From: Flammeovirga pectinis
GTDB taxonomy: Bacteria; Bacteroidota; Bacteroidia; Cytophagales; Flammeovirgaceae
Direction: 5' to 3'
Assembly (NCBI RefSeq): GCF_003970675.1
Contig: NZ_CP034562.1
Location: 4,473,501 to 4,537,500, forward strand
Length of the DNA: 64,000 bases
Under the pieces are notes generated by a model. It saw only the letters and a list, made by a program, of their open reading frames with translations, ran no database searches and was not told the origin of the DNA. The translations under genes and the position numbers were made by a program. Below, piece after piece: positions 53,261 to 58,983 of this stretch (positions are counted from its first letter, which is position 1; each line of letters opens with the position of its first letter).

Positions 53261-53320
53261 AACGCCAAAACAGTTACGTTTTAAAGATTATTTATCTTTT
53301 TACGTAACTGTTTTGGCGTT
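53261..53320. terminator. 19-bp inverted repeat overlapping the AraC 3' end
   Basis: Perfect stem AACGCCAAAACAGTTACGT (53261-53279) with ACGTAACTGTTTTGGCGTT (53302-53320) and a 22-base T-rich loop. The right arm lies inside the last codons of the AraC gene; the left arm lies outside it. Confidence 0.75.
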
Positions 53321-54267
53321 ATAGCAAACTCTTCTTTAAATGTATTAGTAAGGTGACTGGCATGTGTAAAGCCTAACTGATCTGCAATTTCTACAATTGG
53401 TAAATCGGTGCTTTTTAGCATATTGAAGGCATTGTCTAATCTAGATTTTTTAATAAACTTGTGCGGACTTGTTCCAAAAACCTTTTTAAAATTACGATGA
53501 AAGTTGGCAGTACTTACACCAAATTTTTTAGTGATATCATGTATTTCTATATTGAGAGAGAGGTCTTCTAATAGAAAATCTCTAATAGCAATCATCTGAT
53601 TATAGTTGTAATCTGATATTCCATAGTTTTCTGGCGTAGTAAATCTATTTTTTATCTGGATTAAGAAATGTGTTGCCATTTCTAACGACTTTGAAATACT
53701 ATAACCAATAACTCCTTCATCAATTTCTTGACATTTGAAAAGCTCGTCTATACCTGCTTTTATTTTTGGAACCATGCGTTCATGTAAAATGATTTTTTTA
53801 TTGGAGTTGCTTATTTCATCTAACTGTTCTTTTGTTAGTGTAGTATAATCATATAACACGTTAAAATTTATTCTAATGGATACCATTTCAACATACTGAT
53901 TGGCAGACATAATGGTATCTAAAGGTAAACCAGTGTTGTAAAGTATAACTTCGTCTGATCCAAATTCATTAAGAGTAAGTGTTTTTTTAATTGGATCTAT
54001 TACCGTCTTATTTCTTATAAATTTTAAAATAATCCAATTTTCATCCTTTTTTATTTCTTCGTAGTAAACTTGCTTAACGTTTGTGGTTTTAATTATAGAG
54101 ATCTCAAAGCCAGGAAGAAGGTCATAATACCCAAGATAAATAGAGTTTCCACCGTTTTTACCTCTAAATCTAAACCGGTTATGTTCTGCATTAGGGAAAG
54201 CCTCTTTTAAATTTTCGAAGGTTTTGCTAATCCCCATACTTCTTGTAGGTATATAAATTTGATCCAT
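53281..54267 (-). CDS. AraC-family regulator, likely activator of the adjacent sulfatase regulon
   Basis: A 328-residue regulator. The N-terminal about 210 residues are a long sensor region with no recognised domain (YDLLPGFEISIIKTTNVKQV and onward). The C-terminal HTH pair is typical: HDITKKFGVSTANFHRNFKK, VFGTSPHKFIKKSRLDNAF and VEIADQLGFTHASHLTNTFK, ending FAITPKQLRKKINNL. It is divergent from the arylsulfatase. Two direct 12-bp boxes 21 bp apart lie in front of that gene and two more targets, as expected for an AraC-type activator. The ligand is unknown. Confidence 0.9.
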   Translation of the reverse strand: MDQIYIPTRSMGISKTFENLKEAFPNAEHNRFRFRGKNGGNSIYLGYYDLLPGFEISIIKTTNVKQVYYEEIKKDENWIILKFIRNKTVIDPIKKTLTLNEFGSDEVILYNTGLPLDTIMSANQYVEMVSIRINFNVLYDYTTLTKEQLDEISNSNKKIILHERMVPKIKAGIDELFKCQEIDEGVIGYSISKSLEMATHFLIQIKNRFTTPENYGISDYNYNQMIAIRDFLLEDLSLNIEIHDITKKFGVSTANFHRNFKKVFGTSPHKFIKKSRLDNAFNMLKSTDLPIVEIADQLGFTHASHLTNTFKEEFAITPKQLRKKINNL

Positions 54268-54366
54268 TTTTTAGTAGTACTTGAAAAGATTCTAGTGAAA
54301 ACCAATGTTTTTTGTAAGAAATAGAGTGTTTTTTTACTCTTATTGGTCAAGGTATTCATTTTGATA

Positions 54367-54427
54367 CTTTTATGCAACTTATCTATATTTTTATGTAATT
54401 AATATCATTATTGATCCCCTACATTTG
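54367..54427 (+). promoter_or_regulatory. AraC-type two-box promoter of arylsulfatase
   Basis: Box 1 CTTTTATGCAAC (54367-54378) and box 2 TTTTTATGTAAT (54388-54399) are 21 bp apart. A 20-bp gap follows, then TACATTTG at 54420-54427. The same geometry is found at the next two promoters. Confidence 0.8.
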
Positions 54428-54487
54428 TTCTATCGAAAATAAGAGATGTCAAAAATCTCATGATCTTTAATAAAATAATTATCACTT

Positions 54488-56860
54488 ATGAAAACAATTT
54501 TTACAACGATTAAAGTCGTCTTATTATTTATTTTTGGAAGTAACATTAATTCGTTTGCTCAAGAAATATTACCTTTTCCAGAGAAAAAATCGAAGAGTAA
54601 AGCGGGGGTAAGTATGCAAAATTCTACATACATTAAGTCTACTCCAGAAAAGCATTTAAAAAAGGATGCTCCAAATATTTTAATTATATTAATTGATGAC
54701 ATAGGTGGTGGTACAACTACAACTTTTGGAGGAGAGATAAATACTCCAAACCTAACAAGAGTAGCAGATATGGGAGTTTCTTATAATAGGTTCCATACCA
54801 CTGCAATGTGTTCTCCAACAAGAGCTTCGATATTAACGGGTAGAAACCATACTAAAGTTGGTAGCGGACAAGTGGCAGAATTTGCTAATAATTGGGATGG
54901 TTATTCTAGTATTATCCCTAAAGAATCTGCAGCAATGGCAGAAGTGCTAAAAGATTATGGCTATAATACAAGTGCTTTTGGTAAGTGGCATAACACTCCA
55001 GTAGATGAAACATCAAGTGTTGGCCCTTTTAACCACTGGCCAAACGCATATGGATTTGACTATTTTTACGGATTCTTAGGAGGAGAAGCAAACCAATACG
55101 AACCTCATTTAGTAAGAAATAACACTTATGTAGAACATCCTAAAACTTCTAGTGGACATGATTATTACCACTTAACAGAAGATTTAACAGATGATGCAAT
55201 CAAGTGGTTAAGAGATCAACAATCTTTTGCACCAGATAAACCTTTCTTTATGTATTGGAGTCCAGGTGCTGTACATGGTCCTCATCATGTAACAAGAGAG
55301 TGGAGTAAAAAGTATGAAGGTAAATTTGATGACGGTTGGGATAATTACCGTAAAAGAGTTTTCAAAAGACAAAAAGAGATGGGTTGGATTCCTGGCAACT
55401 CAGTGTTAACAGAAAGAGATTCTACAATGCAGGGTTGGGACGATATTCCTGATGATCAAAGAGAATTCCAATCTCAATTAATGGAAGTTTTTGCAGGTTT
55501 TACAGAACATACAGATTACAATGTTGGTAGAATTATTGACGAACTAGAAGCTCAAGGTGAATTAGACAATACATTAATTTTCTATATCTGGGGCGATAAC
55601 GGTTCTTCATCAGAAGGTCAGAAAGGAACAATTAGTGAGTTATTATCTTTAAACGGTATCAAGAGTAATGTCGAAGACCATATTAAAGCTTTAGATGAGC
55701 TAGGTGGTTTAGAAGTTTTAGGTACAGATAAAGTCCATAATATGTATCATGCAGGTTGGGCATGGGCAGGAAGTACACCCTATAAAGGTACAAAGTTAAC
55801 AGCTTCTTACTTAGGTGGAACTCGTAATCCAATGGTTGTCGCTTGGCCTAAAGCAATTAAACACGATAGTATTCCTCACGCTCAATTCCATCATGTAAAT
55901 GATATTGTCCCTACAGTTTATGATGTAGTGGGTATTGAAGCTCCTCAAGTAGTTAATGGTGTTACGCAAACAGAAATTGATGGAGTTAGTATGGCTTATT
56001 CATTTAATGATGCAAAAGCAGAAGGGACTTTAAAAACACAATTTTTCGATATTATGGGTAGTAGAAGTATTTACTCAGACGGGTGGATTGCGTGTACTTT
56101 TGGACCAAGAATCCCTTGGGTACAGGGTTTTCCAGCGGGTATTGAAAATTGGAGACCAGAAAATGATAAATGGGAACTTTACAACATTAACGAAGATTGG
56201 ACAGAGTCTAATGATTTGGCTGCAGAATATCCTGAAAAGTTAGAAGAATTGAAAGAGTTATTTCTTGTAGAAGCAACAAAATATGATGATCTACCTATTG
56301 GTGGTGGTTTATGGTCAGTTATTTATCATCCAGAAGATTTACCAAGAACACCTTATAATGAGTGGCATTTTACAGGAAGAATGGAACGTATGCCAGAAGG
56401 TATTGCACCTAAATTAGGAAGAGCATCTAATACAGTAGAAATGGAGGTTGAAATGCCAAAAAATGCAAATGGTGTTTTATATGCACTAGGCGATTTTTCT
56501 GGAGGGTTAACTTGTTTTATGAAGAATGGCTATTTGTATTATGAGTATAATTTATTTGAGATCAAGAGATTTAGATTTAAATCTGCTCAGAAAATTAAAC
56601 CTGGTAAAGTGAAATTAGAAGTTATATCAACAATGACTGCTAGAAAGGGAAATGCTCCATTAGATGTAGTAATCAAAATTAATGGTGAAGTAGTGACTAA
56701 AGGTCAAGTACCAACCACTGCTCCAGTAGGGTTTACAGGAAATGACTGTTTGGATTTAGGTACAGATTTAGGCAGCCCAGTATCAACAATGTATTATGAT
56801 AAAGCTCCTTACAAATTTAATGGTGAAATAATCAAAACAAAGATATTTTACACTAAATAA
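54488..56860 (+). CDS. Arylsulfatase, S1_4-type (large), exported
   Basis: Formylglycine sulfatase of 790 residues with a Sec signal (VVLLFIFGSNINSFAQ). The metal/active-site series is complete: NILIILIDDIGGG, the FGly motif C-S-P-T-R at Cys108 (AMCSPTRASILTGR), TSAFGKWHNTP, PFFMYWSPGAVHGPHH, and FYIWGDNGSSSEGQKG. The large insertions and long C-terminal beta domain fit the S1_4 arylsulfatase group. That C-terminal part includes EWHFTGRMERMPEGIAPKLG and GVLYALGDFSGGLTCFMKN. It is not a lipoprotein, unlike the sulfatases at 8986-12161. It belongs to the AraC regulon with the 259-aa pair downstream. Confidence 0.93.
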   Translation: MKTIFTTIKVVLLFIFGSNINSFAQEILPFPEKKSKSKAGVSMQNSTYIKSTPEKHLKKDAPNILIILIDDIGGGTTTTFGGEINTPNLTRVADMGVSYNRFHTTAMCSPTRASILTGRNHTKVGSGQVAEFANNWDGYSSIIPKESAAMAEVLKDYGYNTSAFGKWHNTPVDETSSVGPFNHWPNAYGFDYFYGFLGGEANQYEPHLVRNNTYVEHPKTSSGHDYYHLTEDLTDDAIKWLRDQQSFAPDKPFFMYWSPGAVHGPHHVTREWSKKYEGKFDDGWDNYRKRVFKRQKEMGWIPGNSVLTERDSTMQGWDDIPDDQREFQSQLMEVFAGFTEHTDYNVGRIIDELEAQGELDNTLIFYIWGDNGSSSEGQKGTISELLSLNGIKSNVEDHIKALDELGGLEVLGTDKVHNMYHAGWAWAGSTPYKGTKLTASYLGGTRNPMVVAWPKAIKHDSIPHAQFHHVNDIVPTVYDVVGIEAPQVVNGVTQTEIDGVSMAYSFNDAKAEGTLKTQFFDIMGSRSIYSDGWIACTFGPRIPWVQGFPAGIENWRPENDKWELYNINEDWTESNDLAAEYPEKLEELKELFLVEATKYDDLPIGGGLWSVIYHPEDLPRTPYNEWHFTGRMERMPEGIAPKLGRASNTVEMEVEMPKNANGVLYALGDFSGGLTCFMKNGYLYYEYNLFEIKRFRFKSAQKIKPGKVKLEVISTMTARKGNAPLDVVIKINGEVVTKGQVPTTAPVGFTGNDCLDLGTDLGSPVSTMYYDKAPYKFNGEIIKTKIFYTK

Positions 56861-56881
56861 GGAGAGTTTATACCCCGACTT

Positions 56882-56922
56882 AAAGACTACTTATTGGAGA
56901 TCAATAAGTAGTCTTTTTTTTA
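56882..56922 (+). terminator. Intrinsic terminator after arylsulfatase
   Basis: 15-bp stem AAAGACTACTTATTG / CAATAAGTAGTCTTT, loop GAGAT, followed by a T-run. Confidence 0.9.
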
Positions 56923-56959
56923 TTAAAACGTCTTTATTAAAAAAGATTCTAATTTGATA

Positions 56960-57020
56960 TTTTTATGCAATAAATGAATAATTATATGCAATAAATATCA
57001 ATTAAACTCTACTACCTTTG
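56960..57020 (+). promoter_or_regulatory. AraC-type two-box promoter, first 259-aa gene
   Basis: Box 1 TTTTTATGCAAT (56960-56971), box 2 ATTATATGCAAT (56981-56992), 20-bp gap, TACCTTTG (57013-57020). Box spacing is 21 bp. Confidence 0.8.
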
Positions 57021-57072
57021 TATTGTTGGGTTAGTAAATAGCCTCTCTCACACAATTATAAATTACATTATT

Positions 57073-57852
57073 ATGAAAAAGACAATTACATTAATTATCA
57101 CATTAGTTATTTTAGTAGGAGGATATTTTGGTTACCATAAGTTTGTAAAACATATACCAAATGATGGAGAACATACAAAGCTTACAAGAGCAAATAATGT
57201 TTTAGACTCAAGATATTTAGAGGTATTAGTAGTTGGAGGAGATGCAATTACCAAAAAATTAACAGCCAATTGTTACAACACAACTTTATTAAATGGAGAG
57301 ACAAAAGAAAATAGAGATTCTGCTCCTCAAAATTTAGTAGATCAATTAAATACAGACGACATTACTACACAATTTGATGCATTTTCTTCTTTTATCAACG
57401 GACCTAGAGTTTGGTGTTTAGATTGGATAGAAGTTCAGGCAGGGAAAGTGAGAGACTTTAATGGTTTACAAGCAAAATGGGTAGCAGCTTTAGAGTTGGA
57501 TAACCCTACTAAATTTGCAAAAAGTAAGCCTCCTTATCAAGTATCGTCTATAGAAAGAAATACATCTTTTGGTATTAATAAAGGGACTGATATTTTTCTT
57601 TTAGTGGATCCAAAAGGAACAATCTGGCTAATGAAATCATATAGTTTAAAACTAGATTCAACAATGTCTAGAAGTAAATTACCAACGTTAATGGCCGAAT
57701 TAAATTTACCAGAAGGATGGAAGTATAAAGTTGTTACCCTTCAAAAGGATATAGTATTAAAGCCACTTTCAGGAGTAGCTCAAATTATTGCTGATGATAA
57801 AGATAATGTTTATGATAGAACAGGTTTAGGTTATAGTAATTATAGCTTGTAA
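57073..57852 (+). CDS. Membrane-anchored protein of unknown function, sulfatase-associated, copy 1
   Basis: A 259-residue protein with one N-terminal membrane anchor (ITLIITLVILVGGYFGYH) and a periplasmic domain. I recognise no family. The domain is alpha/beta with two conserved Cys (TANCYNTTLL and VWCLDW). Notable segments are LEVLVVGGDAITKKL, WVAALELDNPTKFAKSKPPY, GTDIFLLVDPKGTIWLMKSY and a Gly/Asp-rich end (DKDNVYDRTGLGYSNYSL). Its promoter shares the two-box geometry with the arylsulfatase, so it is probably expressed with it and acts in the same periplasmic process. Confidence 0.82.
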   Translation: MKKTITLIITLVILVGGYFGYHKFVKHIPNDGEHTKLTRANNVLDSRYLEVLVVGGDAITKKLTANCYNTTLLNGETKENRDSAPQNLVDQLNTDDITTQFDAFSSFINGPRVWCLDWIEVQAGKVRDFNGLQAKWVAALELDNPTKFAKSKPPYQVSSIERNTSFGINKGTDIFLLVDPKGTIWLMKSYSLKLDSTMSRSKLPTLMAELNLPEGWKYKVVTLQKDIVLKPLSGVAQIIADDKDNVYDRTGLGYSNYSL

Positions 57853-57964
57853 GTTTTTGTAAAATAAAAAGGAAGTAGTTGTTCTGCCGAATAACACTAC
57901 TACTTTTAATTATTACAGAGAGACAAAATGGTTTTTTAGTAAAGTGTAAAAACCATTACATAGT

Positions 57965-58013
57965 GTAGACTAGGCATTATTAATATCTTTAATTTTGCTT
58001 AGTCTACTTTTTT
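57965..58013 (+). terminator. Terminator of 259-aa gene copy 1
   Basis: GTAGACTAG / TTAGTCTAC with one wobble, followed by TTTTTTATG. Copy 2 has the related hairpin. Confidence 0.75.
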
Positions 58014-58088
58014 ATGATTAAGGCTTTCAAACTCTCTATTTTCTTTTTATTAAATCTATTCTAACTTTTAAAAGTAGATAATTTGATA

Positions 58089-58149
58089 TTTTTATGCAAT
58101 TTTAAGATAATTTCATACAATTAATACTAAAGAAACGTAGTTACCTTTG
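58089..58149 (+). promoter_or_regulatory. AraC-type two-box promoter, second 259-aa gene
   Basis: Box 1 TTTTTATGCAAT (58089-58100), box 2 ATTTCATACAAT (58110-58121), 20-bp gap, TACCTTTG (58142-58149). The geometry is identical to the other two. Confidence 0.8.
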
Positions 58150-58203: not shown

Positions 58204-58983
58204 ATGAAAAAGACAATTACTTTAGTTATCACATTAGTTATTTTAGTAGGAGGATATTTTGGGTACCATAAGTTTGTAAAGCATATACCAAATGATGGTG
58301 AACACACAAAATTCGGTAGAGCAAATAATGTTTTAGATTCAAGATATTTAGAGGTATTAGTAGTTGGAGGAGATGCAATTACCAAAAAATTAATAGCCAA
58401 TTGCTACAATACAACTTTATTAAATGGAGAGACAAAAGAAAATAGAGATTCTGCTCCTCAAAATTTAGTAGATCAATTAAATACAGACGACATTACTGCA
58501 CTATTTGGTGCATTCTCTTCTTTTATCAATGGCCCTAGAGTTTGGTGTTTAGATTGGACAGAAGTTCAGGCAGGGAAGGTAAGAGACTTTAATGGTTTAA
58601 AAGCAAAATGGGTTGCAGCATTAGAATTAGATAACCCTACTAAATTTGCAAAAAGCAAGCCTCCTTATCAAGTATCATCTATAGAAAGAAATACATCTTT
58701 TGGTATTAATAAAGGGACAGATGTTTTTCTTTTAGTGGATCCAGAAGGTACAACTTGGTTAATGAAATCGTATAGCTTAAAATTAGATCCAACAATGTCT
58801 AGAAGTAAATTACCAGCATTAATGGCTGAATTAAATTTACCAGAAGGATGGAAATATAGAATTGTTACTCTTAAAAAAGATATCGTTTTAAAGCCTAAAT
58901 CTGGAGTTGCACAAATTATTGCTGATGATAAAGATAATGTTTACGATAGAACAGGTGTAGATTATAGTAGTTACAACTTATAA
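58204..58983 (+). CDS. Membrane-anchored protein of unknown function, copy 2
   Basis: Paralogue of the preceding gene with the same length and anchor, and about 91% identical by eye. Substitutions are concentrated in short patches (for example DITALFGAF against DITTQFDAF) and at the C-terminal end; both Cys and the core motifs are kept. The conserved frame, independent promoter and terminator suggest both copies are used. It may have diverged slightly in specificity or give a dosage effect. Confidence 0.82.
   Translation: MKKTITLVITLVILVGGYFGYHKFVKHIPNDGEHTKFGRANNVLDSRYLEVLVVGGDAITKKLIANCYNTTLLNGETKENRDSAPQNLVDQLNTDDITALFGAFSSFINGPRVWCLDWTEVQAGKVRDFNGLKAKWVAALELDNPTKFAKSKPPYQVSSIERNTSFGINKGTDVFLLVDPEGTTWLMKSYSLKLDPTMSRSKLPALMAELNLPEGWKYRIVTLKKDIVLKPKSGVAQIIADDKDNVYDRTGVDYSSYNL

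Follow-up and report, generated by a model that had tools for sequence, protein, structure and literature searches.

A predicted AraC-type activator site of two direct half-sites 21 bp apart at a sulfatase locus of Flammeovirga pectinis

In the 64,000-nucleotide stretch of the Flammeovirga pectinis genome analysed here (the window), three promoters share one layout: two direct half-sites of ~17 bp, 21 bp apart, followed at a fixed distance by the -7 box TAnnTTTG. The layout is conserved between species, specific within the genome, and linked to a divergently oriented AraC-family gene. We conclude that the product of this gene very probably binds the direct repeats and activates the adjoining sulfatase gene and two 259-aa genes, a prediction drawn from sequence comparison. 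An earlier, sequence-only reading had already proposed that an AraC-type activator uses two direct repeats, and the proposal now gains support from i) the full AraC-type domain of the candidate regulator, ii) co-occurrence of gene and sites within the genus, iii) conservation of both half-sites and the -7 box, and iv) AraC paralogues whose neighboring boxes also have 21-bp spacing.

Three promoters with one layout

At each of the three promoters the two boxes start 21 bp apart and are followed after exactly 20 bp by TAnnTTTG, just as first described. In the letters of the window, the sulfatase boxes are CTTTTATGCAAC at 54367 and TTTTTATGTAAT at 54388; those of the first 259-aa gene are TTTTTATGCAAT at 56960 and ATTATATGCAAT at 56981; and those of the second are TTTTTATGCAAT at 58089 and ATTTCATACAAT at 58110 (Table 1 gives the -7 boxes). 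The box positions hold, but the repeat unit is longer than the 12 bp originally assigned to it: we place the half-site at ~17 bp, beginning near 54361 (TTGATAnTTTTATGCAA) at the sulfatase promoter and with a consensus near TTGATAnTTTTATGCAAT, because identity between the window genome (G000) and another genome of the genus (G003) is concentrated there. The TTGA part of this unit is not conserved in a third genome of the genus, G007.

Table 1. Promoter elements and genes of the sulfatase locus, in window coordinates
Feature	Position	Strand	Remarks
AraC-family regulator, 328 aa	53281..54267	-	PF12833 HTH_18 at residues 246-323, E 1.5e-21
Sulfatase promoter, distal half-site	54361..54377	+	earlier box 54367-54378; 16/17 identical in G003, framed 1 bp later there
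Sulfatase promoter, proximal half-site	54382..54398	+	earlier box 54388-54399; 15/17 identical in G003, framed 1 bp later there
Sulfatase promoter, -7 box TACATTTG	54420..54427	+	predicted transcription start ~54432, by analogy with F. psychrophilum
Type I sulfatase, 790 aa	54488..56860	+	PF00884, E 1e-63; C-S-P-T-R motif in translation
259-aa gene 1, distal half-site	56954..56970	+	14/17 identical in G003
259-aa gene 1, proximal half-site	56975..56991	+	12/17 identical in G003
259-aa gene 1, -7 box TACCTTTG	57013..57020	+	letters read
259-aa protein 1, N-terminal hydrophobic stretch	57073..57852	+	no known family
259-aa gene 2, distal half-site	58083..58099	+	letters read
259-aa gene 2, proximal half-site	58104..58120	+	letters read
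259-aa gene 2, -7 box TACCTTTG	58142..58149	+	letters read
259-aa protein 2	58204..58983	+	92% identical to first; tandem duplicate

In F. psychrophilum the -7 box lies at -12 to -5. If the same numbering applies here, the proximal half-site, whose end is 20-21 bp upstream of the -7 box, would extend from about -49 to -33 and overlap the -33/-35 region. No TTG is found 17-23 bp before the -7 box in any of six promoters from G000, G003, and G007 (one has TTG at 24), and the absence of a -33 element is weak evidence, because in F. johnsoniae a -33 motif could not be identified (PMC7366714).

A scan blind to the box letters, which required a direct repeat 17 bp long at period 21 (score threshold 12) and, 18-22 bp on, a strict TAnnTTTG on either strand of the 64 kb, returned exactly the three promoters and no other place in the window. 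The remaining periods between 9 and 60 gave 0 or 1 match each, and 100 dinucleotide shuffles of this A+T-rich sequence gave a mean of 0.13 and a maximum of 1, against 3 observed. The promoters at 56960 and 58089 are largely one promoter, because the 259-aa genes are near-identical tandem copies and G003 has only one. The genome-wide scan that the sequence-only reading had called for was run on G000 with the box pair, leaving out the -7 box: it found only the three promoters at up to 2 mismatches, and at 3 mismatches it added 3 matches versus 6 for a reversed control. Since no further box pair appears at up to 2 mismatches, the small regulon first envisaged seems to be a single locus of 3.9 kb; its three promoters do carry the same site, but a single candidate target is a sulfatase and the other two are duplicate genes.

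The divergent regulator, its candidate targets, and their company in the genus

The gene divergent from the sulfatase does lie on the minus strand and encodes a full AraC-type DNA-binding domain: the HTH_18 match covers profile positions 2-79 of 80 and HTH_AraC matches at E 3.7e-16, as befits the two-helix-turn-helix C-terminal domain of the family. Pfam profiles matched the AraC-type domain alone, with no propeller sensor, histidine kinase, or receiver; the N-terminal part falls in no Pfam family, and model confidence is below 50 over most of residues 1-220. Relatives within the genus are 81% identical in G003 and 40% in G007, and a contig search returned one clear relative, in Flammeovirga sp. 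EKP202 (40%), alongside three weak matches that fall in the DNA-binding domain. Among 395 genomes of the class, the regulator's own genome alone gave a match at E 1e-40 or better (5 candidates scored per genome, in a sample evidently without G003 and G007). The AraC subfamily numbers 13 in the window genome, the regulator included, and 12-27 per genome across the genus at E 1e-35. Among the matches listed in the open-licence PubMed Central literature, none concerned this regulator or AraC control of a Flammeovirga sulfatase.

Type I (S1) sulfatases have the active-site motif C/S-x-P-x-R, and the product encoded downstream of the first promoter belongs to this class by its PF00884 domain and CSPTR; the closest solved structures are arylsulfatases (e.g. 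4cxk, 1hdh). The 259-aa protein matches neither Pfam nor NCBIfam at E 0.001 and has no solved relative (best E 0.14), its structure model is unusable (mean pLDDT 33), and relatives occur in 3 of 291 genomes across its order, the window genome among them; one remote relative was seen in G181, where an alpha/beta-hydrolase protein matches in its C-terminal part.

The comparison set behind the exact sites consists of three genomes of one genus. At the homologous locus the layout recurs at two promoters in G003 and one in G007, and a search of nine genus genomes with a pattern written from these six sites, both gaps being free over 27 values each, recovered the six sites only, all with identical spacing (reversed-pattern control, 0). 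Between G000 and G003 identity is 16/17 and 15/17 in the half-sites and 8/8 in the -7 box, as opposed to 30/85 and 10/20 in the surroundings. The exact site is present in 3/3 genomes with a relative of the AraC protein (at least 40% identity) and in 0/6 without (Fisher p 0.012); G000, G003, and G007 each have one between the AraC gene and the sulfatase, and in G007 ~10 bp separate the start codon of the AraC gene from the beginning of the site. Sites at 2 mismatches occur in 5 of the 6 genomes without the relative. Because sites, AraC gene, and sulfatase gene travel together, finding them in one genome does not point to the AraC protein in particular. In G173, which belongs to another genus of the same family and has a sulfatase relative of 64% identity, no ORF in an 18-kb stretch matched the window AraC and no box pair was seen upstream of the sulfatase.

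The 21-bp period elsewhere in Flammeovirga

The 21-bp spacing holds as a rule beyond this locus in the genus, and it is already known for AraC-type hybrid systems (PMC3878776). Other AraC paralogues adjoin boxes with different letters and the same spacing. With the discovery loci left out, 21 is the best period in 12 of the 55 regions near AraC paralogues that have a repeat (120 regions in total), the next best period reaching 3 and ~1.5 being expected if 37 periods were equal; with a -7-like box required, period 21 is found in 14/120 AraC-adjacent regions versus 0-6 for other periods. Regions of the same stretches not adjoining AraC genes also show it (7/85, or 13/174 with a -7-like box), so that either other regulators use the period or AraC targets lie further off. 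In a first spectrum using strict -7 boxes, period 20 ranked first near AraC genes (24 boxes), dominated by a single region (L134), and period 21 did so in the regions away from them (60 boxes). At other loci the gap before the -7 box varies more: 19-21 bp in 8 of the 14 AraC-adjacent matches and 16-25 bp in the others.

AraC-subfamily genes adjoin 26 of the 36 related sulfatases of the genus. Period 21 with a -7-like box accompanies 12/26 AraC-paired and 2/10 unpaired sulfatases (Fisher p 0.25, not significant; the window sulfatase is counted through a different, higher-scoring repeat at 54297-54334, and the G007 site falls below threshold), other periods reaching at most 3/26; without the three discovery loci, it accompanies 10/23 paired sulfatases. 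A hybrid system of the window genome, with propeller sensor, histidine kinase, receiver, and AraC domain all present, lies opposite a SusC/SusD pair, and the site between them has this geometry at 2 mismatches.

Proposed activation, its rivals, and known systems

We propose that the AraC-family product is a one-component activator which, when its signal is present, would set two DNA-binding domains in tandem on the two direct half-sites; at 21 bp apart, or two helical turns, these would lie on the same face of the DNA. The two half-sites, at about -62 and -41, would serve activation as araI1-I2 do, with the proximal one replacing a -33 element and helping to hold RNA polymerase on TAnnTTTG 20 bp further on, and the sulfatase and both 259-aa genes would be switched on together.

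The alternative that survives best, although we consider it unlikely, is that another regulator (an AraC-domain hybrid system, a LytTR response regulator, or an AraC paralogue) occupies the two-box site and the divergent AraC protein acts elsewhere. LytTR regulators bind direct repeats of ~21-bp period, and the divergent gene is one of the 13 subfamily members in its genome. The same geometry is used by the hybrid system of the window genome and, judging by their predicted sites, by Bacteroides hybrid systems (PMC3878776). Against this, among the nine genus genomes exact sites are restricted to the three with the divergent AraC gene, all of which have one between that gene and the sulfatase, and no hybrid system was seen among the classified ORFs near the loci, a subset of the ORFs there. 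Less probable still is that the AraC protein binds but mainly represses, by masking both the -33 region and the divergent promoter of its own gene: the G007 site is so close to the AraC start that its occupancy probably blocks the AraC gene too, but activators of the classical araBAD kind have just this arrangement, in which the proximal half-site is centred near -41 and TTG is missing at the -33 distance. It is scarcely credible that the likeness reflects an inherited promoter duplication and A+T-rich coincidence with no regulator at all since, even if the two 259-aa promoters are duplicates in A+T-rich sequence, the sulfatase promoter has the same layout though different elsewhere, what is conserved between species lies chiefly in the boxes, and the shuffles yield far fewer matches than the three observed.

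Activation by the divergent AraC protein, if true, would provide a site model for a stand-alone Bacteroidota AraC regulator, that is, a half-site and spacing rule tied to a -7 box that is unusual and characteristic of the phylum, and with it a pattern that can be searched for against almost no background. F. pectinis is a marine bacterium. The recurrence of the AraC-sulfatase neighborhood across its genus hints that desulfation steps have switches of their own, perhaps for the use of algal glycans. We see about an even chance that stand-alone AraC activators form a large group in Flammeovirga, many of them dedicated to an adjoining sulfatase, and that they share one promoter grammar (half-site of ~17 bp, 21-bp period, ~20 bp to TAnnTTTG) and differ in half-site letters, a natural series for reading the Bacteroidota AraC recognition code.

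At E. coli araBAD, I1-I2 consists of two direct ~17-bp half-sites 21 bp apart, the distal stronger and the proximal over the -33/-35 region. The Flammeovirga sites are araI1-I2-like in half-site length, direct orientation, 21-bp spacing, and stronger distal copy, and probably also in the placement of the proximal copy; they differ from araBAD in having the Bacteroidota -7 box rather than -35/-10, and in serving a sulfatase rather than sugar genes. Vibrio XylRA and E. coli XylR likewise recognize A+T-rich direct repeats through an AraC-type domain, binding by XylRA having been demonstrated by mobility shift where the Flammeovirga sites are predicted, but these proteins have a LacI-type sensor domain, respond to xylose, and occur mainly in Gammaproteobacteria (PMC12125979). 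The AraC-type hybrid two-component systems of Bacteroides thetaiotaomicron have predicted sites that are direct repeats averaging 21 bp, and the part of the source seen states no fixed distance to a -7 box such as that present in Flammeovirga (PMC3878776). Unlike those hybrids, the Flammeovirga regulator combines its AraC-type domain with an unclassified N-terminus, without propeller, kinase, or receiver. In HTCS_Rgu-1, predicted 12-bp sites are separated by a 9-bp spacer (PMC3878776), the same arithmetic, 12 + 9, as in the Flammeovirga boxes.

Promoter geometry at the sulfatase locus

The sequence-only reading had placed two 12-bp boxes 21 bp apart, followed after 20 bp by a TAnnTTTG -7 box, upstream of the sulfatase and of both 259-aa genes, and the box positions, spacings, and -7 boxes in all three promoters were reproduced exactly. 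Both strands of the 64-kb window were scanned without use of the box letters, for a 17-bp direct repeat with period 21 over a score threshold and then a strict TAnnTTTG 18-22 bp downstream, and these three -7 boxes alone came back; each remaining period from 9 to 60 gave 0 or 1 match, and 100 dinucleotide shuffles of the window gave a mean of 0.13 matches and a maximum of 1. The three-promoter layout is not a chance arrangement, and because the 259-aa genes are tandem copies (92% identical), the three promoters provide roughly two independent observations for this genome. A second repeat of period 21 lies on the AraC-gene side of the sulfatase site; no counterpart is evident by eye in the related Flammeovirga genome G003, and this repeat may be either chance or an upstream operator.

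Features of the sulfatase locus and of one other tandem array in the window
Feature	Position	Strand	Remark
DUF308 membrane-protein gene, 190 aa	38855-39427	minus	tandem
DUF308 membrane-protein gene, 190 aa	39827-40399	minus	tandem
DUF308 membrane-protein gene, 190 aa	40800-41372	minus	tandem
AraC-family regulator	53281-54267	minus	C-terminal domain
Second period-21 repeat	54297-54334		5-of-6 -7-like box
Sulfatase site	boxes 54367/54388		-7 box 54420
Type I sulfatase	54488-56860		CSPTR motif
First 259-aa site	boxes 56960/56981		-7 box 57013
First 259-aa gene	57073-57852		N-terminal hydrophobic stretch
Second 259-aa site	boxes 58089/58110		-7 box 58142
Second 259-aa gene	58204-58983		N-terminal hydrophobic stretch

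Comparison with solved structures places the sulfatase nearest to arylsulfatases of the 4cxk/1hdh group, which we take to be Pseudomonas aeruginosa AtsA. Searched at E 0.001, the 259-aa proteins matched neither a Pfam nor an NCBIfam family, and they had no relative among solved structures; few genomes of the order encode them (3 of 291, their own counted), and in a different family of the order a remote relative is joined to an alpha/beta hydrolase (G181 L051:6080-7897). Elsewhere in the window, the DUF308 genes are identical pairwise at 507-552 of 573 bases, and the 399-400 bp gaps between them show little mutual similarity in an ungapped comparison.

Conservation in the genus and size of the probable regulon

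Among nine Flammeovirga genomes the site is present at three loci: i) the window; ii) G003, at two promoters, with the same gene order and with AraC 81%, sulfatase 91%, and a single 259-aa gene 83-86% identical; and iii) G007, at one promoter that is missing the TTGA part of the distal half-site, where AraC (40%) and sulfatase (68-69%) are divergently arranged and no 259-aa gene was found. When both gaps were left free (27 values each), a search of the nine genomes returned these six sites with both gaps identical in all, and the reversed-pattern control gave 0 matches; since the pattern was derived from the six sites, this search tests spacing and specificity, not discovery. In ungapped comparison of F. 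pectinis with G003, identity at the sulfatase promoter is 30/85 upstream, 16/17 in the distal and 15/17 in the proximal half-site, 10/20 in the spacer, and 8/8 in the -7 box; at the first 259-aa promoter the corresponding values are 15/55, 14/17, 12/17, 10/20, and 7/8. This profile indicates two half-sites of about 17 bp rather than the 12 bp first proposed.

Within F. pectinis, the box pair at up to 2 mismatches matches the three window promoters only, and 3 mismatches add 3 matches versus 6 for the reversed control. A looser pattern including the -7 box, at 2 mismatches, adds one site with the same 21/20 geometry and 2 mismatches (C2:207395-207453; L165 about 6396), with a SusC/SusD pair on one side and, on the other, an AraC-domain hybrid two-component system of 1354 aa. 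Its counterpart in another Flammeovirga genome (G004:C12:1407331-1407389) likewise has an AraC-type hybrid two-component system and a SusC-like gene as its neighbours, and the site more probably belongs to the hybrid system itself.

Period 21 beyond the locus

The looser pattern at 2 mismatches gave 26 matches in 8 of the 9 genus genomes (control 0). Besides the six sites there are 20, many of them mutual orthologues: 14 are followed at 89-577 bp by a co-directional ORF of at least 80 aa, 3 have a divergent AraC paralogue starting 56-117 bp away, 2 lie within opposite-strand ORFs, and 1 is intergenic with no co-directional ORF after it. In six other genomes of the genus (G002, G004-G008; L059, L062, L065, L066, L067, L069), 2-mismatch sites are followed after 125-577 bp by members of one protein family of ~405 aa with signal-like N-termini (MKTIQLFILAF...).

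By eye, 21-bp repeats also occur in the divergent regions of four further AraC paralogues (L010, L011, L013, L015). The AraC-subfamily stretches sampled were 8 besides the window's own, of 13 in all, in F. pectinis, 11 of 17 in G003, 20 of 20 in G008, and 5 of 12 in G004. Of 120 AraC-adjacent regions (discovery loci left out), 55 have a repeat over threshold, with 21 the best period in 12 and every other period best in at most 3; among 174 non-adjacent regions (window genes included), 85 have such a repeat and 21 is the best period in 7 of them, a count that period 10 also reaches. When a -7-like box was demanded as well (5 of 6 letters, at 16-25 bp downstream), period 21 appeared in 14/120 adjacent regions, where no other period between 17 and 45 exceeded 6, and in 13/174 non-adjacent ones, where period 42 came next with 9 and period 20 had 6; with strict -7 boxes only, the peak near AraC genes is at period 20. 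Among the period-21 regions with a -7-like box, 8 of the 14 adjacent and 9 of the 13 non-adjacent ones keep 19-21 bp between repeat and box, and the rest 16-25 bp. Period 21 is therefore a broader promoter rule in these genomes, with a looser distance to the -7 box than at the sulfatase locus; the half-site letters differ between AraC genes.

The genus contains 36 sulfatases related to that of the window at E 1e-100 or better, and, with the AraC-subfamily list reaching down to about E 1e-44, at least 26 have one of its genes within 700 bp (for example at L113, L122, L139, and L141), against a generous chance expectation of 0.7 of 36. The listed pairs comprise 9 divergent and 17 convergent arrangements and 23 distinct AraC neighbours, three of them common to two sulfatases each. 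Paired sulfatase promoters carry a period-21 repeat plus -7-like box in 12/26 cases and unpaired ones in 2/10 (p 0.25), a count in which the window sulfatase enters through its second repeat and the G007 site falls under threshold; minus the three discovery loci, the paired figure is 10/23.

Proposed promoter mechanism and known systems

PMC9723704 places the TAnnTTTG box of Flavobacterium psychrophilum at -12 to -5. With the -7 box so placed, the half-sites would extend from about -70 to -54 and from about -49 to -33, centred at -62 and -41. These centres match the classical positions of a tandem AraC activator, as at araBAD. We favour activation by the AraC protein at this site, in which the proximal subunit would stand in for the -33 contact. 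For B. fragilis, PMC7366714 describes TTTG at -33. None of the six promoters has a TTG 17-23 bp before the -7 box, and one has it at 24; because that paper also describes the -33 motif as not identified in F. johnsoniae, the absent TTG is weak support. From the sulfatase one might guess at sulfated algal glycans or sulfate limitation as the signal.

For AraC-type hybrid systems of Bacteroides thetaiotaomicron, PMC3878776 describes predicted sites as direct repeats averaging 21 bp, one of them made up of 12-bp sites separated by a 9-bp spacer. The Flammeovirga case would carry this arrangement over to a stand-alone AraC protein, and it adds a constant distance to the predicted -7 box at six promoters; comparison between genomes supports this reading well.
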